Positions 19,734-30,560 of a stretch of DNA of 37,078 nt are shown in pieces. The translations under genes were made by a program, and so were the position numbers. The DNA is from a bacterium. GTDB taxonomy: Bacteria; UBP6; UBA1177. Position 1 is the stretch's first letter; every line of letters begins with the position of its first letter. The notes below the pieces were generated by a model, which saw only the letters and a list, made by a program, of their open reading frames with translations, had not been told where the DNA came from and made no database searches. Location: the NCBI GenBank assembly GCA_017405875.1, contig JAFQZM010000011.1, positions 1 to 37,078 of the forward strand, in the 5' to 3' direction.

Positions 19734-20510
19734 TTAGTAGCAGTAACCCTGAACGCAAGGCATACCGGAGCAACATTCGCTTACGCCTTCAACACACTGC
19801 TGACCTGCCGGAACACACTGTGCAGCGTTGATTACTACACCTGCGGAGCATCCGCTTGTCGAGGTGTTTGCTTTGCAGATGTATTCACCGGATTTGCAAG
19901 CGTAGCATTTTGCCGGAGGATTGGTTGCGCCGGAGTTGAGTGTCGGGCAGTTGTCGGTTGTTGTCGAGCAAACTGCATCGATACATTTTGAATCTTCCGG
20001 AGAATAAACCTGGTTCTGCGGGCAAAGACCGCATGTCGTAGCCGTTGCATTTGCACCGGTAGCACATTTAAGACCGGTAAGACCTTTTTCTGCATAGCAG
20101 CATCCTGCAGGGCAGTTTGCTTCCGAGCATGCCTGAGTCGAAGCGAGAACGCTCAAGCAGCGGGCAAGTTTAGTGTTGCATTTTGTTCCTGCCATTGTGC
20201 AGTCAGTATCAGACGTGCAGCCTTTTACACATTTTCCGCCGGTAACGCAGATCATGCAGGCACCGCACTCAGTATCGGTTGCACACTGTTTGCCGAGATT
20301 TTCGTTTGCACATTCGTCACCAGTTGGCTCCGGAGTAGTGTCTTCATCTGTTTCAGGAGCGGCATCCGTCGGTTCAGCAGTGTCTTCATCGTTTACATCG
20401 GAATCTTCTTCAGCCGGCTCTGTGTCGGGTTTGACTACGAGCGGATCATCACCGCATGCAACAAACATGAAAAGTACAGCAAGTAATGCTGCAAAAGACA
20501 TTTTCTTCAT
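19734..20510 (-). CDS. Cysteine-rich lipoprotein with acidic linker
   Basis: The 258-residue protein has a lipoprotein signal ending F-V-A-C, directly followed by G-D-D-P. An acidic/Pro/Thr linker runs to about residue 65. The mature part is packed with cysteines in short C-x(2-6)-C arrangements (for example C-A-T-D-T-E-C-G-A-C-M-I-C, T-S-D-T-D-C-T and S-E-C-C-S-G-M-P-C), a disulphide-rich surface-protein style like the Cys-rich modules of Myxococcota. GGAGG lies 8 bases before the ATG. No enzymatic motif is visible; binding or adhesion is possible. It is divergent from the collagen-like genes across a 196-base gap. Confidence 0.82.
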   Translation of the reverse strand: MKKMSFAALLAVLFMFVACGDDPLVVKPDTEPAEEDSDVNDEDTAEPTDAAPETDEDTTPEPTGDECANENLGKQCATDTECGACMICVTGGKCVKGCTSDTDCTMAGTKCNTKLARCLSVLASTQACSEANCPAGCCYAEKGLTGLKCATGANATATTCGLCPQNQVYSPEDSKCIDAVCSTTTDNCPTLNSGATNPPAKCYACKSGEYICKANTSTSGCSAGVVINAAQCVPAGQQCVEGVSECCSGMPCVQGYCY

Positions 20511-20706: not shown

Positions 20707-21825
20707 ATGAAAAAATCTGCTTTTATTATTTTCTTAAGTTTTTTGTTTGTAGAAGCTCTGTCGGCAGAAAATATGCTTGTCAATGTTTCTGATGACGACA
20801 CCGGAACTTGCGCTAACGGCGGCAAAAAAATCGAAGTCGGTACGGATGAAGATGGAAACGGAGCGCTGGACGAAAACAACGAATTCGGTAATAACGAAAT
20901 AACAAAGACCGAATTTGTCTGCAATGGTGCTGACGGTACGGCTACGGCAATTTCGGTAACGGAAAATCCGTCTGAGTGCGGAGCGGCCGGCGGTTTTAAA
21001 GTTACTGTGAACGGAAACGATTTCTTTGCCTGCAACGGTGCTGACGGCGACGATACTTTTGTTACGACTTCCACCTTTGAAGGTAGTGAAGGCGGCTGTG
21101 AAAACGGCGGGGTCAAAATTGAGGCCGGTAAAAACAACACAGTCACTAAAACTGAATATGTCTGCAACGGCGAAAAAGGTGATGCCGGTAAAGACGGAAA
21201 CAATGTTCTTGTCAAAATTTCAGAAACCGAAGAAGGAAAATGTAAGAAATACGGCGGAATAAAAATCGAAGTTTTCATTGATAAAAACAATAACGGCGTA
21301 GTTGACGAAGGAGACGAAATCATCGAAGATCAGACACAATATATCTGCAACGGTGAAAAAGGAACTGCAGGCGGCTCCGGCACACCTGGTCCGAAAGGCG
21401 AAGACGGTGAAAACGGAAAAGACGGAGCACCTGGCGAGCAGGGTGAAAAAGGCGAAACCGGCGCAAAAGGCGATCAGGGAATCCAAGGCGAAACCGGCGC
21501 AAAAGGTGAAAACGGCACAGACGGAATATCTTCTCTCGTTGCGGTAGTTGATGAACCGAAAGGCGAAAACTGCGTTACAGGCGGCAAAAAAATCTCTGTC
21601 GGACTCGATTCGAACAGAAACGGAACACTTGATGAAGACGAAATCGATCCGGAAAGTGTTTATTATGTCTGCAACGGGCGTGATGCTGAAGAGGCTGGTC
21701 TCAGTTCATCGTCAACAGGCTGTTCTTTGACTACTGTTGATGAAAACGAAACTCTGATTTCAGTTGTTTTTGCTCTTTTGACGGCTGTTTCGGCTGCTTT
21801 TGCATTGAAAAAGGTCCGCAGTTAG
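20707..21825 (+). CDS. Secreted collagen-like protein with DUF7151-like repeats and GCS C-terminal signal
   Basis: The 372-residue product starts M-K-K-S-A-F with a signal peptide ending about residue 20. I chose this ATG because GAGGAG precedes it. Five DUF7151-like modules are visible, of the form C-x-x-G-G-x-K-I-x-V-G ... Y-V-C-N-G. Several carry Ca-loop-like D-x-D-x-N-G-x-L-D-E sequences. A collagen-like Gly-X-Y stretch lies at about 215-273 (G-E-K-G-E-T-G-A-K-G-D-Q-G). The C terminus has S-S-S-T-G-C-S (Cys339), then a hydrophobic helix at about 350-367 and a basic K-K-V-R-S end. This Cys-helix-basic order resembles MYXO-CTERM-type anchoring signals. It is followed 9 bases later by a second gene of the same kind. 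An adhesive or structural surface role is inferred. Confidence 0.85.
   Translation: MKKSAFIIFLSFLFVEALSAENMLVNVSDDDTGTCANGGKKIEVGTDEDGNGALDENNEFGNNEITKTEFVCNGADGTATAISVTENPSECGAAGGFKVTVNGNDFFACNGADGDDTFVTTSTFEGSEGGCENGGVKIEAGKNNTVTKTEYVCNGEKGDAGKDGNNVLVKISETEEGKCKKYGGIKIEVFIDKNNNGVVDEGDEIIEDQTQYICNGEKGTAGGSGTPGPKGEDGENGKDGAPGEQGEKGETGAKGDQGIQGETGAKGENGTDGISSLVAVVDEPKGENCVTGGKKISVGLDSNRNGTLDEDEIDPESVYYVCNGRDAEEAGLSSSSTGCSLTTVDENETLISVVFALLTAVSAAFALKKVRS
21349..21525 (+). repeat. Collagen-like Gly-X-Y coding repeat
   Basis: Triplet-level repetition with Gly codons (GGC, GGT or GGA) at every third codon and frequent GAA, AAA and CAG between them. It encodes the collagen-like stalk of the protein at 20707. 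Confidence 0.85.
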
Positions 21826-21833
21826 GAGGCATT

Positions 21834-22838
21834 ATGAAAAAAATAATTTTACTGCTTTCCGTTTTTGTCTCAGCTCAACTGTGTGCCGACTGGTTGATTG
21901 AGACAACTGCTTTGTACGAAGGCGATGAGCATTGTCCGAACGGCGGAACACTCCTTGCTTTCGGCGAAGATCCCGGAACCGGCACATTGGATGATACGGC
22001 ATTAAAAGCGTATGTTTGTAACGGTAAAAACGGCTGCAAAATGTTAGCGCTTCCTTCAGCGAACACGCCGAAAATCGGATGCTTCACGATAAAAAGCGGA
22101 TTGGATTGTGATCTCAACAATGCAATAGACGACCTCGAAACATCAACGTCAATGACACTTTGTACCGGTGAAAACGGCGAAGACGGCACCTTCCAAATCA
22201 ATTCCGGAAGTGACGCTTCCAAAGGAGAAGACGGAGAAGACGGTGCAAACGGAAAAGTTTCAGAACTTGTTATAACTGAAGAATATGCCGGAGACAACTG
22301 TGCAAACGGCGGAACAAAAATCGAGAACCGCTTTGATTCAAACGGAAACGGTACTTTTGAAGAATCGGAAATTTCTGTTAATTACGTCTGCAAGGGTGAA
22401 GAAGGCGTCACTCCCGTAGGTCCGCAAGGCAGTGACGGACTTCCCGGAACTGACGGAAAAGACGGAGCTAAGGGCGCAAAAGGTGAAACCGGCGACAAAG
22501 GCGAACAGGGCGATCAGGGAATTCCGGGTGAAAAAGGCGCCGACGGTAGTGACGGCTACGATTCACTGCTCAGTGTAGTTGATGAACCTGCCGGAGACAA
22601 CTGTGCAAACGGCGGAAAAAAGTTCCTGAGCGGAACCGACACCGACAGAAACGGCGCTCTTGACGAAAGCGAAGTCAAAAACAGCTACTACATATGCAAC
22701 GGCGAGGATGCTGTCGAGGCAAGCGAACAGGCGGCAAGTTCAGGCTGCTCTGTTTCCTCGATTGATAATAATTCCGGTTTCGAGTTTTTGTATTCAGTAA
22801 TTTCGAATGTCTGCCGATTGATGTCGGATCTTTTCTAA
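21834..22838 (+). CDS. Second secreted collagen-like/DUF7151-like protein with GCS tail
   Basis: The 334-residue product has a signal peptide (M-K-K-I-I-L-L-L-S-V ... C-A-D) and the same plan as its upstream neighbour. Four DUF7151-like modules are present, of which the one ending Y-V-C-K-G before the collagen stretch and the one ending Y-I-C-N-G after it are the clearest. A Gly-X-Y stretch lies at about 188-241. The C-terminal A-S-S-G-C-S (Cys305) is followed by about 29 residues containing a weakly hydrophobic segment, but no clear basic end. GGAGG lies close before the ATG. Spacing of 9 bases to the first copy suggests one transcript and a tandem duplication followed by divergence. Its stop overlaps that of the convergent PNGase F-like gene. 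Confidence 0.85.
   Translation: MKKIILLLSVFVSAQLCADWLIETTALYEGDEHCPNGGTLLAFGEDPGTGTLDDTALKAYVCNGKNGCKMLALPSANTPKIGCFTIKSGLDCDLNNAIDDLETSTSMTLCTGENGEDGTFQINSGSDASKGEDGEDGANGKVSELVITEEYAGDNCANGGTKIENRFDSNGNGTFEESEISVNYVCKGEEGVTPVGPQGSDGLPGTDGKDGAKGAKGETGDKGEQGDQGIPGEKGADGSDGYDSLLSVVDEPAGDNCANGGKKFLSGTDTDRNGALDESEVKNSYYICNGEDAVEASEQAASSGCSVSSIDNNSGFEFLYSVISNVCRLMSDLF
22395..22556 (+). repeat. Collagen-like Gly-X-Y coding repeat
   Basis: Glycine codons at every third codon position encode the stalk of the second collagen-like protein, with motifs such as G-A-K-G-E-T-G-D-K-G-E-Q-G that also occur in the first. Confidence 0.8.
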
Positions 22839-24463
22839 TAAATCACGAGATAGCTTGAAAGGTAAATTTCGGCGCGGTAGCCGTTTTCATCGGTGACAAC
22901 CGGTTCGTAAACTTCTCCGTTGAGATATGCGCCGTAGGAAAATGTGTTTTCGCCGCTTGTAAGTGCTTTGGTTACATTGATTCTTATGAGTTTGACATCC
23001 TGTCCCGGGCACCATCCGGCGCGTCCGTATGGCCATGAGCCGTATTGATTCGGCACAACGCCGTCACTGACCGATTCGAAACACCCGTCGCTGGTTCCTG
23101 CATTTTTGAAATCGATTTTAAAATTGCTGCCGTTAACGGTGAAAACCGATTCAAACGGGCAGAATTCGGCGCAGTTGGCCGCTTCCGAACCGTTTCCGTG
23201 TCCTGTTATAAAGGCGACTATTTCAGCCTTTTTCACATCTTCGCTTTTTATCGTCTGCGGCTCGAATTGCGAGTTGTAGTTTTCGTCAAACTGCTCAAGC
23301 TGGTTGAAAAGCGGGATCAGACTTTTAGGTTCATCAGCCTCTTTTTTCACAAAAACGAAATCAAGGTTGTTGACGTAATAGTCTCCGTCAACCGTAAAGC
23401 GGAATTTGTATTTTCCGTTTTTCTCAAACATCGGTTTAAGCGGTGTGATGTCGGTGAGCCACTTGCCGCTTCTGCCGTAAGTCGTGATCCAGCGGCCGAT
23501 TTCGGTTTCACATTTTTCGCCGGTTTCATCGCAAAGGAAAAGTCTTTCAAGTCTGTCCCATTCGCAGCTTTTCGGTGTGTCGCAAATCTGTTCGAGCGAT
23601 ATGAAGAGTTCTCCGTTTTCGTTCAGACCGTTGAAATCAATATCGAAAAACAGCTCTTTTGTCCATCCTTCTTCTGCAAAAGGTTTGTTTTCAAGACCTT
23701 TGAAAACAGTCGAGTTTCCGGAATTTTCTTTGATGAAATCAGTGTTTTGCCTTTCGTAGTTGTAAAGTTCGCTCTCTTTGTAAAGATGCTTGAATTTCGG
23801 CGGAAAATCGCTCGAATCCCAGCTTGAAAACGAGCCGCCGCGCCTGATTCTGCGTTCTCCGTCTATCCCGAAAAAGAAATCGGAATTATTTTTGAGCCAC
23901 TCGTTTATCCATGAATCTGTTTCTGCGACCGGCTGTTCAAGAATGTGGATTTTCTTTAAAAGCGCAGCGTTTCCGACCATATCCTGAGCATCTGCGACGG
24001 AATTTTTTATTATTTGGATTTTTTCTTTTGCAAAGTCTGTGTCATCAGTATCAATCATGAAAAAGTAATGAGTGTTTTCAGGCGATTGGTCAAAAAGAGC
24101 GTAGAGATCGGTTTCCCAGATTTTTTTGCTGTCAGAATTTTTTTTGCGGTAAAAAACAAAGAGATAGTTTTCCTCTTTTGAGTAATTTTCGGCGAAATTC
24201 CAGTCGCCGGAATCAAACGTAAGAGTGAAGTCGCAGGCATAGTCTCCGAAAGAATTCCCGCATTCCAAATCTTCAAAATCGGGGCTCGGGGTTCTTCCGT
24301 CCGGCACCTCAGCGTTGTCGTCATCAGAAATTTCCGTGTTGTCGCTGTCGGAAAAGTTGTCGTTGTCGGCATTGGTTTCATTTTCGCTTTTTTTGCTTCC
24401 TGAACATGCCGCCGCAATGAACAGAATCGCAAAAACGACAAGATAGAACTGTTTGAGCTTCAT
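22835..24463 (-). CDS. Lipoprotein with peptide-N-glycosidase F-like domain
   Basis: The 542-residue product has a lipoprotein signal ending A-A-A-C (Cys20) and an Asp/Asn/Ser-rich linker to about residue 60. From residue 419 it carries a segment that I recognise as PNGase F C-terminal-like: I-T-G-H-G-N-G-S-E, N-C-A-E-F-C, then G-V-V-P-N-Q-Y-G-S-W-P-Y-G-R-A-G-W-C-P-G. PNGase F-type enzymes cut the bond between Asn and the first GlcNAc of N-glycans. The preceding ~100 residues could contain the N-terminal jelly-roll half. Residues 65-280 are unknown and include repeated aromatic/acidic stretches. GAGGT lies before the ATG. It is downstream of the subtilisin-like protease by 53 bases and probably shares its transcript. 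Activity on glycoproteins is inferred from family resemblance. Confidence 0.75.
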   Translation of the reverse strand: MKLKQFYLVVFAILFIAAACSGSKKSENETNADNDNFSDSDNTEISDDDNAEVPDGRTPSPDFEDLECGNSFGDYACDFTLTFDSGDWNFAENYSKEENYLFVFYRKKNSDSKKIWETDLYALFDQSPENTHYFFMIDTDDTDFAKEKIQIIKNSVADAQDMVGNAALLKKIHILEQPVAETDSWINEWLKNNSDFFFGIDGERRIRRGGSFSSWDSSDFPPKFKHLYKESELYNYERQNTDFIKENSGNSTVFKGLENKPFAEEGWTKELFFDIDFNGLNENGELFISLEQICDTPKSCEWDRLERLFLCDETGEKCETEIGRWITTYGRSGKWLTDITPLKPMFEKNGKYKFRFTVDGDYYVNNLDFVFVKKEADEPKSLIPLFNQLEQFDENYNSQFEPQTIKSEDVKKAEIVAFITGHGNGSEAANCAEFCPFESVFTVNGSNFKIDFKNAGTSDGCFESVSDGVVPNQYGSWPYGRAGWCPGQDVKLIRINVTKALTSGENTFSYGAYLNGEVYEPVVTDENGYRAEIYLSSYLVIY

Positions 24464-24516: not shown

Positions 24517-27114
24517 TTAGAAAACCGTTACAGAGCAGCCTGATGATTTGGAAGAATTCTCTTTCATGCAGTATTTCGAGCAGCCGTCGCCGTCCATTCT
24601 GTTTCCGTCGTCGCACTGTTCGCCTACATCAAGGAGTCCGTTTCCGCAGTTTTCCTTGTTGCTTCCGCCGTTGTTATCCGAACTGTTGTTGTCGTTGTTG
24701 TTGCCAGGATTGTCCTCACCGGAATAGCAGCCTGATTTATCCCAGCCAAGGCAGTTTGCAGCGCATTTTGCCGTTCCGTTTTCGGGTGCGCCGGCAAGCT
24801 GTTTGCACGGAATTGTGTCTCCGTCGCAGACTTCGTCGTTGTCTACATTGTTGTTGCCGCAGAGAACTCCGCCGCCGCCTTCACATGTGCTTGTGTCGTA
24901 GCCTGTGCAGTTTTTGTTGCAGTAAGCGATTCCGCCTGTGAAACGGTCATCGATTGATTTGCACGATTTGTAGCCGCCGTCGCATTTTTCACCTTCTTCC
25001 TTGAGGTCGTTTCCGCAGCTGGCGATAGTTTCTGTTCCTTTCGGGAGAATTTTGTTGGAAATGCAGGCGTATCCTGAACGGACTTCGTTGTAGCTGCATT
25101 TTGCGATGCACTGACCCTGATAACACTCAACGCTGCTGTTTCCGTTGTAGCAGTCGTTGTTTTTGGTGCATGTCGCTGAGCAGTAGCCGTCTTTCCAGTC
25201 TCCGTCCGTTATACATTTCGGCGTAGCTGCCGTGTTTATACAGTCGGAATCAACCGAGCATGGGTCAGCAGCTCTTCCTTTGCTGTTGCCGTCGGTGCAG
25301 CCGTTGTCGACTATGCCGTCGCAATCGTCGTCTTTGTCGTAGTTGTTGCCGTAACAGCCGTCGATTGAAGATGTCGCAACGCATTCACCGCATGTTCCGT
25401 TCTTTGCTCCGACTACCATTGCATTTGCGTCAACTATGCCGAAGCCGTAACACGGAGAGTGTTCTTTCGATCCGCCTGTAATCCATTCGTCGTTTTGTGT
25501 GGTCCAGCCGCCTTCCGCGCAGTTAGTCGACGGTCTGCGGGCAGACAATTTTATGCAGTTCATAGCTCCGGAAACATCCAGATTGGGATTTGCTGCAAGC
25601 ATTAGTGCGACTGCGCCTGCTGCTACAGGTGTTGCCGCACTCGTTCCGCTCATACCGCTCGTATAGTCACCGTTGCTGTCAAGACTTCCGAGACAACCAT
25701 ATTCATTACATGCATAACCGTAACTGTTCCCGGTAATATCGGTTGTGTTGTTTCCTGCACCTGCAGAGATATCGATTTCGGCACCGTAGTTCGAGTAGCT
25801 TTCCAAAGAACCCGACTGACTGAGTGCGCTGATTGTCAGAAAATCGTTGTCTTTAAGGAAGCTGTTCTTATTGGTATTGCAGTGAGAGTTTCCGGCTGCC
25901 CAGAGGAAAATAGTTCCTTTGCCGCCTCTTCCGTTGGTTCTGCCGTAGTCAACACCCTGCGAGCTGTTGTTGTCGGCCGGAACATTGGTGCAGTTGCCGC
26001 GGTTGTCCGTGTCCTGTGCGCCCCAGCTGTTGCTTACGACCCAAGCGCCGTTGTCAACAGCATATTTCAATGCTTCGAGTGTTGCGCCGGCACCGGCATA
26101 TTCTCTCCAACTGTCGGAAATAAGTCTTATCGGAATGATCGGGCAGCCCCAGCATGAAGCTGAAACACCCGTACCGTTGTTTGTTTTAGCTGCAGCGAGA
26201 CCGGCACAAGCTGTTCCGTGCGGAACACCTTCATGGTCGTTGCCGTTTCCTGAAGTGTTAGGTGCACCGCCCAGATTGCCGATATAATCTTTTCCGAGAT
26301 TCTTCAGAACATTGATGTCCGGATGATTCAAATCAACGCCGGTATCGACGATTGCGATTCTGACATCCTTGTTCTCTGCAGTTTCGGTGTCCCATGCATC
26401 CGGCGCGTTTATCTGCGTCAAGTGCCACTGTTTTGAAAAATAGGGATCGTTCGGAGTTGTCGAAAGAGGTATCATTCTCCAAAGCCAGTTCGGTTGAGCC
26501 CAGCGGACAAGCTGTTTTTCGTAAAGCGAATTCGCGATTGCGAAAGGATCGCTTCCTATAGGCAGTGAAACCGTGTAAAAATTCATGTCTTCGTCGATTT
26601 CAACAACTTTCAGATTATAAAGTTCAAGAGTTTTTTCCTGTTCTTCCTTGGTTGTGTATTTTGTGAAGACAAGGTTCATTGTTCCGTCAAGAACGATCGG
26701 AGCATCTGCAGCGTGATAAGTGAGAACAGGCCATGCTTCGATGCCGTTTTTTGCAAGAAGATTGCGTACCTGTATCCAGTTTTTGCGGTCGAATTCGTCA
26801 AGATTGATTTTGAATGCCCTGAAATTATGATGATCGAAAGTGACATCAGAGATCATGTCGGTGATTCGGATTCCGTTAAATTCAAGCCCGTGAAGAGAGT
26901 TCAGATTGACAGAGTGAGGAATAGCGATTTCATCATATTTCTGCAAAAGATACTGCGGTTCGCCGTCCATATGATAGTAAAAAGTATCGTAAAGTCTGCC
27001 GTTTATTTCGATGAGTTTGCCTAAAACCGGTGCTTCAAACTCCAACTTTTCAGCAGATAAAACAAATGAAAAACAGAGCAGAAAAGAGATTAAGACTTTC
27101 TTCATACAGGACAT
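24517..27114 (-). CDS. Secreted subtilisin-family (S8) serine protease with Cys-rich repeats and SSGCS tail
   Basis: From the ATG at 27114 (strong AGGAGG upstream) the protein has 865 residues. It has a signal peptide to about residue 21 and a ~200-residue propeptide region. The S8 catalytic domain spans about 225-540: catalytic Asp257 in A-I-V-D-T-G-V-D, His299 in H-G-T-A-C-A-G, oxyanion Asn409 in A-A-G-N-S and Ser492 in S-G-T-S-A-A-T-P. The C-terminal third is cysteine-rich. Two related modules have C-G-N ... E-x-C-D-G ... C-K and end in A-N-C-L-G-W-D-K-S-G-C or N-C-T-G-Y-D-T-S-T-C. A Myxococcus-type repeat follows (C-G-N-G-L-L-D-V-G-E-Q-C-D-D-G-N). The extreme C terminus is K-S-S-G-C-S-V-T-V-F. 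It should be an exported, probably surface-attached protease. Confidence 0.92.
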   Translation of the reverse strand: MSCMKKVLISFLLCFSFVLSAEKLEFEAPVLGKLIEINGRLYDTFYYHMDGEPQYLLQKYDEIAIPHSVNLNSLHGLEFNGIRITDMISDVTFDHHNFRAFKINLDEFDRKNWIQVRNLLAKNGIEAWPVLTYHAADAPIVLDGTMNLVFTKYTTKEEQEKTLELYNLKVVEIDEDMNFYTVSLPIGSDPFAIANSLYEKQLVRWAQPNWLWRMIPLSTTPNDPYFSKQWHLTQINAPDAWDTETAENKDVRIAIVDTGVDLNHPDINVLKNLGKDYIGNLGGAPNTSGNGNDHEGVPHGTACAGLAAAKTNNGTGVSASCWGCPIIPIRLISDSWREYAGAGATLEALKYAVDNGAWVVSNSWGAQDTDNRGNCTNVPADNNSSQGVDYGRTNGRGGKGTIFLWAAGNSHCNTNKNSFLKDNDFLTISALSQSGSLESYSNYGAEIDISAGAGNNTTDITGNSYGYACNEYGCLGSLDSNGDYTSGMSGTSAATPVAAGAVALMLAANPNLDVSGAMNCIKLSARRPSTNCAEGGWTTQNDEWITGGSKEHSPCYGFGIVDANAMVVGAKNGTCGECVATSSIDGCYGNNYDKDDDCDGIVDNGCTDGNSKGRAADPCSVDSDCINTAATPKCITDGDWKDGYCSATCTKNNDCYNGNSSVECYQGQCIAKCSYNEVRSGYACISNKILPKGTETIASCGNDLKEEGEKCDGGYKSCKSIDDRFTGGIAYCNKNCTGYDTSTCEGGGGVLCGNNNVDNDEVCDGDTIPCKQLAGAPENGTAKCAANCLGWDKSGCYSGEDNPGNNNDNNSSDNNGGSNKENCGNGLLDVGEQCDDGNRMDGDGCSKYCMKENSSKSSGCSVTVF

Positions 27115-27221
27115 TTTTTCCTCCTTTATAAACAAAAAAACAAAAAATCATAAGCAAAAGCAATGCCTTAGAAAAATCATCAATAAAATCGACATATTTT
27201 CCAAGGTACGAAAAACTAATA

Positions 27222-27297: not shown

Positions 27298-28269
27298 TCA
27301 AAGAAACGCACTGTCGAAAAACTGCTGCCTTGCCAGCCTGATCCGCTCTTTTCTTTCGGGCTTTTCGGGTGTCGGATGTGTCGAATTGGTGAGAAGGGCG
27401 GCTGTTGTGTTTGTTTTTGGATCGACGAGAAATGCCGTGCCAGTGAATCCCAGATGACCGAAATACCTTTCTTTAGCCGATTTCCCGTAGTTGGAATCGT
27501 CTCCTTCAGGCCTGTCGAAACCTGCAAAGTCCAGTTTTTGCGCGATCGGCAGGAACCACGGTGTTTTCAGCAACCTGTCAAAATAACCGACAACTTCCGA
27601 TGCGCTTCCGAAAACTCCGGCATGGGCGGTGATTCCCCCCAAAAACCATGAGTTTTCATCTTCAACGGTTTTTTCCGGAAATGATCCTCGCATTTTTGAA
27701 AAGGCTGTTTTCGGAGTTTTTTCTTTCGGACGGTATGTGAGATTAAAATCTAAACTGTTGGATTTCTTGAAGTTTTCAAAAATTTCATCAATCGGCTGAT
27801 GGTGAATTTTTTCAAGAATAAAACCCAAAAGAAGAAAGTTCAGATCGCTGTAACACTTCGTTTTGTCGGAAGTTTCATGCCCGAAAATGATTTTGACGAC
27901 TTCTTTTTTCCTTTCTTCCAAAGATTTTTCTGCCGGAACAAGTTCGTAAAACGGAAGCCATGCCGGAAACCCGGAAGTGTGGCTTAAAAGCTCAACGACA
28001 GTGACATCACCGTTAAAGTCGCTGAAAAATCGGGAAATATTCTCGTTTTCAGAAAGTTTTTTTGATGAAAAAAGCTCATAAAAAATGGGAACCGTAACGA
28101 TCGCCTTTGTGAGTGAAGCCAAATCAAACTGCGTGGAATCATTGATTCTTTCACTCGAATCAAAGCCGAATGTTCCGCCATTACAGCACGAAAAAACGCC
28201 GTTTTTCAAAGATGCAGACTGATAGGCCGAATAAAGCCCTGAGCCGATATTTTTTTGCAGAAAATCCAT
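27298..28269 (-). CDS. Beta-lactamase-fold serine hydrolase (class C/esterase type)
   Basis: The 323-residue protein belongs to the serine beta-lactamase-like superfamily (Pfam beta-lactamase). The nucleophile motif S-x-x-K is S-L-T-K within F-D-L-A-S-L-T-K. H-T-S-G-F-P-A-W follows, and Y-S-D-L-N provides the Y-x-N element. The third motif is probably H-L-G-F-T-G-T near 270. There is no signal peptide, so it may be cytoplasmic or exported by another route; this is odd next to secreted proteins. Members include D-amino-acid peptidases, esterases and transpeptidase relatives, so the substrate cannot be stated. Its start overlaps the metallopeptidase stop by one base (TAATG), so translation is coupled to that gene. 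Confidence 0.85.
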   Translation of the reverse strand: MDFLQKNIGSGLYSAYQSASLKNGVFSCCNGGTFGFDSSERINDSTQFDLASLTKAIVTVPIFYELFSSKKLSENENISRFFSDFNGDVTVVELLSHTSGFPAWLPFYELVPAEKSLEERKKEVVKIIFGHETSDKTKCYSDLNFLLLGFILEKIHHQPIDEIFENFKKSNSLDFNLTYRPKEKTPKTAFSKMRGSFPEKTVEDENSWFLGGITAHAGVFGSASEVVGYFDRLLKTPWFLPIAQKLDFAGFDRPEGDDSNYGKSAKERYFGHLGFTGTAFLVDPKTNTTAALLTNSTHPTPEKPERKERIRLARQQFFDSAFL

Positions 28270-30560
28270 TAGAAAACGGTCATTGAACAGCCGCTGCTTT
28301 TACTTTCTTTCTTGGGTTCGTCGTCGCTGTAGGTATCATCATCCGGCGTGGTTTCACTATCATCGTCTGAAATCACATCGTCGTCAGATTCTTCTTCTTC
28401 CGGAGCTCCGCATTCTTTTTCGGAAGTCCATGAAGCTCTGGCTTTCGGATTGTACAAAAGTCCCGCAGGTCCTTTGTTTATAAAATGAATATAATATCTT
28501 TCGCCCGGTTTGAGATTCGTGAAAGTCCATGTTCCTTTACTTTCGCTTTCGACGATTTGATCATATTTTACAGTAATTGAATAGTCTTCTTCCCAGATTA
28601 CAGGTTCTCCTTCGCGGACAAGAGCGGTCAGTTTGGGAGCTGATCTTTGATCGCCGCTGCTTCCGTAAGGAGTGCCTGTTATTGTCAAAGTATCGATACA
28701 TTCAGGTACATCGAAGTAAAGCTGGACATACATGGGAGCCACTTCAATATCCTCGTCTTCCAATTCTGCATTAACGGTATCTGTTGACGGGTTGTAGTAT
28801 CCGTCACCGACACCGCCGAAGTAGAAGTAATCTGCAGGATTCATGACGTTTCTTGCTCTGATTTCTTCAAAGTAGCCTCTGTCCGTGAGAATTTGTTTGA
28901 AATCATCCTTCAGAGCCGATGCAGGGCTTGATTCGGTTGCTTCAAGCATGAGTTCGCCCCATTCTTTGTAGCCGATCTCGCTGTGCGGAACCGACATGAG
29001 TGCTGTAAGGAAAATCTTCGCGAAATCATCTCTGGTGAAGCCTTTTTCAAGCATTTTTTTATAAATTTCCCAGTGTGCTCCGACCATCGGAAGACCGTCG
29101 TTGTGGGATTCACCGTTGAAATCTTCGTTTACGCGGTTCGGATTCGTTGTCGTTCTGAGACAGCTTTTACCGTCAAGGGTTACTGCGCCGCCTGCCGCAC
29201 CGACTCCTTTTGCTACATATTCTGCAAGGCACGGATCTTCCGTGATGATGAACGAGAAAACGTCCGCCATACCTTCGTTCATTCCCATGATCTCATTTGT
29301 GAAACCGTATTTGTCGGGCCAGCCTTCGTATGCGAACTGAGCAATGCCGTCGATTACACCGTGACCGAATTCGTGATAGACAACATCTCCGTCATAAGCG
29401 AAATCGGCATTTGTTCCCTGACCGAAAACAAGTGCGTCGCTGTCACTGTATTCAAAATCGCCGAAAAACATCTCAGAGAAAGAAGGGTCGGATTTGCTGA
29501 AGAAAGCGTTGTCCATCGGCTTAAGGTCGGACGTGTTGTATCCGCTGTAATAGCCCATCATCTGGAAGTTTGCGATTCCGACGATCGGTTTTTCTCCTTT
29601 GTGGTTCGGAAGTTCCGTGTATTCCTTGAGGCCGAGCCCTGCAAGATAATCGTAAATTTTCGTCATGTGGTAGTAAAGTGCGATTTCGGGATAAATATCG
29701 TCGGTGTCGAGTTTGTATTTCAGACCTTTATCCCAGTCTTCGTATATGAAGCTACCGTTTTCCTCTTTGTTTGCAAGCTGTTTGACTGTGCAGACAGGGA
29801 ATTCATACTGTCCGTAAGAAAAGGTTTCGCCTTCGTCAGGGCAGTTTGCCGCAACGATTTTTCTGAGTCCGTTTTCGTCTTCTTCAGCCGAAAGGAACCC
29901 GTCTGCATCGTCTCCTACCCAGAGAAGATCGACTTCTATCGGTTCCGGAGTGCTTACCGGGTTCATCTCGAAAACTTTCGCTTTGTTCGTTGCAAATTTT
30001 ACAAGGTTTCCGGTGCGGAGAACTCTGCCGTTGTTTGCGTCAACAAAGAAAAATTTTCCGTCAATCGGGCTGATCGGACGGAAACGGATGCGGTATGCGA
30101 GTCTGTATTCGCCGTTGTATTCGATTATAACCGGATACGAAGCGAAATCGGGCTTCGAAACCGTGCTGCCGAACTGCTTTTTAGCCAAAGCGGCAGCGGC
30201 CTGTTCAGCTGTCATAGCCGGTTTGGTGCTGATCGAAAAATCATGTATGCCGTTGATGATATTTACAATTTTGCCGTCTTTCTCTTTGATGACGGTGAAT
30301 TTGCCGACAACAGGAATACCGTTGTAAGACCATGCGATTCTATGGATTGCGATTCCCGAAATCGTGTTCGAATTTTGAATCTCACCTTTGAAAAGCGGAC
30401 TTTTAAGCGATATCAGCGCAGGAAGTTTCTGCTCTACAAAAGCGGTCATGTTTTTTACTGCAAGAGGTTTTGCAGGTTTGATCATCTCAAATTTCGGTTT
30501 TTCGCCGAATAGAGCAAAAACCGCAAAAACGAGTGAGAGTGCGACAAGTAATTTTTTCAT
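28269..30560 (-). CDS. Secreted M4/M36-type metallopeptidase with SSGCS tail
   Basis: The 763-residue product has a signal peptide to about residue 20. An FTP/PepSY-like propeptide region covers about 60-190 (G-I-P-V-V-G-K-F-T-V, then Y-R-L-A-Y-R-I-R-F). The gluzincin catalytic domain has H-E-F-G-H at 396-400, with the third zinc ligand probably Glu429 in N-E-G-M-A-D. The later H-N-D-G-L-P-M-V-G-A-H-W-E-I-Y is closer to fungalysin (M36) than to thermolysin, so the family could be either. A beta-rich domain covers about 570-725. The end is an Asp-rich linker and K-S-S-G-C-S-M-T-V-F. AGGAG lies before the ATG. It is coupled to the serine hydrolase downstream. Confidence 0.9.
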   Translation of the reverse strand: MKKLLVALSLVFAVFALFGEKPKFEMIKPAKPLAVKNMTAFVEQKLPALISLKSPLFKGEIQNSNTISGIAIHRIAWSYNGIPVVGKFTVIKEKDGKIVNIINGIHDFSISTKPAMTAEQAAAALAKKQFGSTVSKPDFASYPVIIEYNGEYRLAYRIRFRPISPIDGKFFFVDANNGRVLRTGNLVKFATNKAKVFEMNPVSTPEPIEVDLLWVGDDADGFLSAEEDENGLRKIVAANCPDEGETFSYGQYEFPVCTVKQLANKEENGSFIYEDWDKGLKYKLDTDDIYPEIALYYHMTKIYDYLAGLGLKEYTELPNHKGEKPIVGIANFQMMGYYSGYNTSDLKPMDNAFFSKSDPSFSEMFFGDFEYSDSDALVFGQGTNADFAYDGDVVYHEFGHGVIDGIAQFAYEGWPDKYGFTNEIMGMNEGMADVFSFIITEDPCLAEYVAKGVGAAGGAVTLDGKSCLRTTTNPNRVNEDFNGESHNDGLPMVGAHWEIYKKMLEKGFTRDDFAKIFLTALMSVPHSEIGYKEWGELMLEATESSPASALKDDFKQILTDRGYFEEIRARNVMNPADYFYFGGVGDGYYNPSTDTVNAELEDEDIEVAPMYVQLYFDVPECIDTLTITGTPYGSSGDQRSAPKLTALVREGEPVIWEEDYSITVKYDQIVESESKGTWTFTNLKPGERYYIHFINKGPAGLLYNPKARASWTSEKECGAPEEEESDDDVISDDDSETTPDDDTYSDDEPKKESKSSGCSMTVF

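Follow-up and report, generated by a model that had tools for sequence, protein, structure and literature searches.

Cysteine-containing C-terminal tails, with and without a membrane helix, in exported proteins of the bacterial phylum UBP6: a possible myxosortase-type sorting signal

Two adjacent genes of a bacterium from the uncultured rumen phylum UBP6 encode collagen-like proteins (here A and B) that carry the motif Gly-Cys-Ser (G-C-S) towards their C-terminal ends. In protein A the motif is followed by a hydrophobic segment and a basic end, whereas in protein B it is not. The locus raises the question of whether the motif is part of a surface-sorting signal, and whether such a signal could do without its helix. 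The window analysed, 37,078 nucleotides in length, is an entire contig (C3); the genome to which it belongs (G000) measures 2.51 Mb and is 99% complete.

The long tail of protein A

The reading frame of protein A opens with an ATG at 20707 that has AGGAG just 5' of it, and closes with the stop codon at 21823-21825 (Table 1). Two Pfam families were matched in the protein, DUF7151 at E=3e-34 and Collagen at E=6e-9; a regular expression matched none of the DUF7151 units, and the Pfam result was used instead.

Table 1 Features of the window discussed in the text
Feature	Coordinates	Strand	Evidence and remarks
Protein A	20707..21825	+	ORF and Pfam; 372 aa; signal peptide, three DUF7151 units, collagen run, C-terminal Cys tail
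Collagen-like Gly-X-Y run of protein A	21352..21531	+	20 triplets, residues 216-275
Long tail of protein A	21706..21822	+	SSSTGCS, polar spacer, hydrophobic helix, KKVRS; sequence SSSTGCSLTTVDENETLISVVFALLTAVSAAFALKKVRS
Invariant Cys codon (TGT) of the long tail of protein A	21721..21723	+	Sequence and tail alignment
Predicted membrane helix of protein A, TLISVVFALLTAVSAAFAL	21751..21807	+	Additive energy -1.1; limits approximate
Basic end KKVRS of protein A	21808..21822	+	Sequence
Protein B	21834..22838	+	Second DUF7151/collagen-like protein; starts 8 bases after A
Helix-less tail of protein B, SGCSVSSIDNNSGFEFLYSVISNVCRLMSDLF	22740..22835	+	Keeps SSGCS; no membrane helix, no basic end
Subtilase (peptidase S8) with signal peptide and short tail	24517..27135	-	Peptidase_S8 E=1e-36; likely ATG start 27105
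Short tail GCSVTVF of the subtilase	24520..24540	-	Directly before stop codon
M4-like metallopeptidase (HEFGH) with signal peptide and short tail	28269..30560	-	Gene-end scan
Short tail GCSMTVF of the M4-like metallopeptidase	28272..28292	-	Directly before stop codon

A sequence-only reading of the window had placed SSSTGCS, a polar spacer, a hydrophobic segment and KKVRS at the end of protein A, and all of these residues were found exactly as placed. It had also proposed a membrane-sorting role for GCS, one to be refuted if orthologues lacked a conserved Cys. They do not: Cys, helix and basic end are present in all 14 readable same-genus tails of protein A. The proposal is supported because orthologues keep the Cys, unrelated proteins share the tail and the lone CPBP protease of the genome is myxosortase-like (see below); sorting, lipidation and cleavage themselves are inferred. 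The proposed comparison of the two tails as membrane helices was made by a rough additive estimate of insertion energy (19-residue window; only the contrast between A and B is usable), which gave -1.1 for the protein A segment, a helix, versus +9.9 for the protein B segment, no helix.

An alignment of 19 long tails, drawn from orthologues of protein A, from DUF11-type proteins and from further genera, had G and C as its sole invariant columns. The tail is not a chance resemblance: a profile of it recovered the protein A tail at E=1.4e-18 and gave 8 matches at E<=1 in its own genome, where six proteins have the tail: protein A and five DUF11-type surface proteins, one of which (on contig C18) has S instead of G before the Cys. 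Matches at E<=1 were found in 27 of 28 genomes (this genome and 26 of the 27 others); among the 28 is one genome that does not belong to the phylum, and its only match was at E=1. A match in acetate kinase (C22:62956) was rejected as false, being internal to the protein.

The sequence-only reading had also suggested comparison with sorting-signal models, and no NCBIfam model fits above its cut-off. The NCBIfam tail models, LPXTG and other non-Cys signals included, gave no match to the tail of protein A; for the remaining tails, the non-Cys C-terminal signal models gave only scattered weak matches. With the MYXO-CTERM model (TIGR03901), a search of the genome gave no match at E<=10 (the curated cut-off of 20 bits was unmet) and 3 of the 19 long tails matched weakly (best E 5.7e-4); the JDVT-CTERM model (NF033191) weakly matched 7 of the 19 (best E 0.022). 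The long tails, that of protein A included, do have the MYXO-CTERM traits of an invariant Cys motif before a helix, the helix and a basic end; the latter two are absent from protein B and from the short tails described below. We consider the long tail most likely to be a new, UBP6-type relative of MYXO-CTERM and probably a variant of the Cys C-terminal signals, its roles in sorting, lipidation and cleavage being inferred.

Helix-less tails of protein B and other exported proteins

Proteins A and B are likely to be encoded in one operon. The sequence-only reading had described the neighbour of A as keeping GCS with a weaker helix and no clear basic end. This held, in that SSGCS is kept and the basic end is absent, and the facts go further: B is not merely a weaker copy, as it has no helix and belongs to a larger helix-less class. 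Of 15 same-genus genomes, 7 encode a B orthologue whose tail runs on as a short non-membrane stretch to SDLF or a similar end, and in the other 8 the protein stops at once, as SGCSLTLF, SGCSLTVF or SGCSATVL. The Cys is kept in 15 of 15 despite switching between these two helix-less ends, and the tail states change at least three times on the protease tree, which is only a rough guide to the species and is poorly supported in places. A helix hidden by programmed frameshifting past the short stop was considered and rejected, as none was encoded in any of the three downstream frames, either for B orthologues or for a short-tail subtilase on contig C35.

The short tail consists of G-C-S, then 2-4 mostly hydrophobic residues, then the stop codon, with no helix. 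Two further genes of the window, those of a subtilase and an M4-like metallopeptidase, end in it (Table 1). In the whole genome 15 real ORFs do so: four subtilases, two M4-like peptidases, one C25 peptidase, two calcineurin-like phosphoesterases, one DUF11-type protein, and five proteins from a Cys-rich family of ~300 aa (two of the five truncated at a contig end). A signal peptide was evident by eye in all full-length N-termini read, except that of the C25 peptidase, the start of which is unclear. With a 15-position profile of the short tail, all 25 genomes of the order had between 8 and 28 matches (E<=1) apiece; the three genomes of the sister family f4 had 0, 0 and 1, and 33 others had 0-5 weak matches. 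The profile itself contains no stop, and all 22 of the best order matches checked end straight at a stop codon, whereas none of 3 outgroup matches checked does so. A second short-tail profile run against 77 Myxococcota genomes gave four weak matches, none convincing when read; those read in Myxococcota and other phyla were rejected because they were either internal or confined to tiny frames. Among 275 crude gene calls sampled without bias, 2 had the short tail, versus 0.04-0.07 expected.

Sixty short tails were collected from the loci with a pattern in which C had to be followed by either S or A; one of the sixty is a clear stray. The Cys is sixth from the end in 41 and fourth in 3; the residue before it is G in 56 and the residue after it S in 57, and 50 of the tails end in F, L, I or V. 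The Cys is also invariant in the short-tail profile alignments. Codons vary (TGC or TGT, and several Ser and Gly codons), as do the hydrophobic residues, and this free codon variation argues that protein rather than DNA is conserved. The short tail is undescribed in the literature searched, but a key 2024 survey of such signals lay outside that search.

Long and short tails are exchanged between related proteins. Subtilases end in GCSxxx-stop in families f1-f3 versus Cys-helix-RKK in the sister family f4, and one DUF11-type paralogue ends GCSLLFVD, whereas its relatives end in the helix tail. It is this exchange of tail types, more than the shared letters, that leads us to think both tails serve one anchoring route.

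Several neighbouring features were recorded. Adjoining the collagen-like pair is a minus-strand gene (22835-24463) for a lipoprotein whose C-terminal domain matches peptide-N-glycosidase F (E=2.5e-23), and between the two short-tail peptidases lies one (27298-28269, minus strand) for a beta-lactamase-fold serine hydrolase (PF00144) with no evident signal peptide. A Cys-rich acidic lipoprotein encoded at 19734-20510 (minus strand) has a normal N-terminal lipobox; thus, ordinary lipoproteins coexist with C-terminal Cys tails. On contig C35 (locus L117) two DUF11-type long-tail genes converge tail to tail, with a short-tail subtilase just upstream of one. The multi-copy, secreted ~300-aa Cys-rich family has no Pfam match, and its members (L141, L143, L156 and L192, on contigs C6, C8, C22 and C24) all end KSDGCSMLF[VIL]; in relatives, several copies lie near one another, e.g. 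at C1:157079-166915 of genome G007. Two short-tail profile matches, C9:85055 and C32:18618, fall in frames of 14-15 codons that are dispersed DNA repeats rather than genes. The regions around them (L216, C9:83000-87500; L217, C32:16500-20500) have repeats of 34-45 bases outside genes, near-identical to the DNA encoding the ~300-aa family tail and lying, e.g., after an mnmA-like gene and toxin-antitoxin-like small gene pairs. They possibly represent a dispersed or cassette-like element.

A myxosortase-like protease and the secretion route

A search of the genome found a single CPBP/Rce1-like protein, of 213 aa and encoded on contig C11. Its nearest NCBIfam models are MrtP (84 bits), MrtC and Mrt_core (78 bits), all below cut-off, and it scored 62 bits against MrtJ. 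The Mrt_core (NF040914) cut-off of 100 bits is unmet throughout the order (78-87 bits), the CPBP proteins of sister family f4 score 93-104 bits, with that of genome G025 passing at 103.7, and those of most other phyla score no more than 44 bits. Each genome of the order has one myxosortase-like match, save one that is 65% complete, and the glutamic protease motifs (EExxxR, a middle His and HxxxN) are intact in all order members read. The named proteins closest to the protease come from MAGs of rumen and gut; several of these MAGs carry the label UBP6 (UBA1177 and others), and on this basis the genome is placed in that candidate phylum. The AlphaFold2 model is confident, with a pLDDT of 90.6, and a PDB fold search with it found no significant match (best E 2.4). 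The protease gene adjoins no substrate gene in its own genome. The GspD secretin of the type II secretion system (T2SS), a component of the route by which MYXO-CTERM proteins leave the cell, was found above cut-off in 24 of 28 genomes, this one included.

For MYXO-CTERM proteins, the cysteines are required for MrtX to cleave, lipidation is a hypothesis, and delivery requires the T2SS (PMC11980579). Rce1 enzymes, which are related to myxosortases, cut helix-less CaaX ends after lipidation.

A proposed route, its rivals and known systems

The reading we favour, at a probability of roughly 0.6, is that the tail of protein A is a myxosortase-type (Cys) surface-sorting signal and that the same anchoring step in the order accepts a helix-less G-C-S end. 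By analogy, protein A would follow the MYXO-CTERM route of Cys lipidation, myxosortase-like cleavage, T2SS delivery and surface anchoring, whereas the short tail would be read without a helix and used like a periplasmic CaaX box in exported proteins. Such a step is plausible for short tails because Rce1 enzymes accept CaaX substrates that have no helix. For these bacteria there are no data on lipids, cleavage or localisation; lipidation, cleavage, the pairing of enzyme with substrate, surface location and a shared route for the short tails are all inferred. A bolder version, which we put forward tentatively and would not bet on, is that the G-C-[SA] box is the periplasmic counterpart of CaaX in UBP6, its Cys being lipidated and its end trimmed by a divergent myxosortase, with the helix having been lost from a Cys-helix-basic signal.

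Several points count against the favoured reading. The protease falls below the Mrt_core cut-off, its gene lies beside no substrate and its model has no significant PDB match, while the tails match MYXO-CTERM and JDVT-CTERM weakly or not at all. As co-occurrence was seen within one phylum, tails and protease are not independent witnesses. Moreover, a helix-less tail offers no obvious membrane hold to an intramembrane protease.

The rival that survives best, which we nonetheless consider unlikely, is that the long tails alone are myxosortase signals and that the short tails are a separate feature, their Cys carrying a lipid or forming a disulfide with a surface partner, with no proteolysis. In its favour, short tails have no helix to remove, the longer form of B fails the helix estimate, and the helix-less end looks derived because the sister family has helices. 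Against it, the G-C-S core and the tail exchange in subtilases, DUF11-type proteins and B orthologues suggest one pathway, and the residues after Cys-Ser stay hydrophobic and near-constant in length (Cys sixth from the end in 41/60), which would be odd if they were unread.

It is very unlikely that a PDZ-type periplasmic factor, either a quality-control protease or a secretion component, reads the short hydrophobic C termini and that the Cys is incidental. The final residues (F, L, I or V in 50/60) would suit it, but a PDZ reader needs no Cys, and the Cys is invariant in the profile alignments, preceded by G (56/60) and followed by S (57/60). We give equally little credence to an ordinary, uncleaved C-terminal helix in the inner membrane with the Cys as a lineage quirk. 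The protein A segment is a good helix and the tail models are not met, but G-C is the sole invariant pair in the tails of unrelated proteins and the Cys outlives the helix in protein B and the subtilases. Finally, that short tails stem from repeated DNA at the ends of genes, and not from selection on protein, is all but excluded: copies resembling the ~300-aa family tail code do lie outside genes on C9 and C32, but the varied codons and hydrophobic residues of the other short tails largely refute it.

The favoured reading can be set beside four known systems. MYXO-CTERM with MrtX/MrtC in Myxococcota shares with UBP6 the Cys motif, helix and basic end, a CPBP protease of the myxosortase group, the presence of a T2SS and tags on many unrelated surface proteins. 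It differs in that the UBP6 motif is S-[ST]-G-C-[SA] with a polar, often acidic spacer of ~9 residues, the UBP6 end is Lys-containing rather than Arg-rich, the UBP6 protease scores under the family cut-off, and UBP6 has the helix-less short form, of which the 77 Myxococcota genomes gave no convincing example. JDVT-CTERM/MrtJ (NF033191, NF033192) likewise joins a Cys motif to a helix; its model matches 7 of the 19 tails only weakly, and the UBP6 protease scores 62 bits against MrtJ. However, it is described as two genes, for a single protease and its single target (PMC11980579), whereas UBP6 shows many targets and no adjacency. Rce1 and its CaaX substrates (archaeal MmRce1, eukaryotic Rce1) have in common the CPBP family and a substrate without a helix, in which Cys precedes a short hydrophobic end. 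However, the CaaX Cys is fourth from the end and on cytosolic proteins, whereas in UBP6 it is mostly sixth (41/60, versus 3/60 fourth) and on proteins with export signals. GlyGly-CTERM with rhombosortase is also a tripartite C-terminal signal on T2SS-exported surface proteases, but with Gly-Gly rather than Cys and a rhomboid rather than a CPBP enzyme. To our knowledge, no C-terminal sorting signal of this kind lacks the helix and basic end beside its motif. If the favoured reading is true, loss of the helix with retention of the Cys and a short hydrophobic end would separate the part of the substrate read by the enzyme from the part that holds it in the membrane, and would link bacterial myxosortases to the CaaX processing of eukaryotes and archaea. 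The tails also allow easy genome-based listing of the UBP6 surface proteome, secreted peptidases included.
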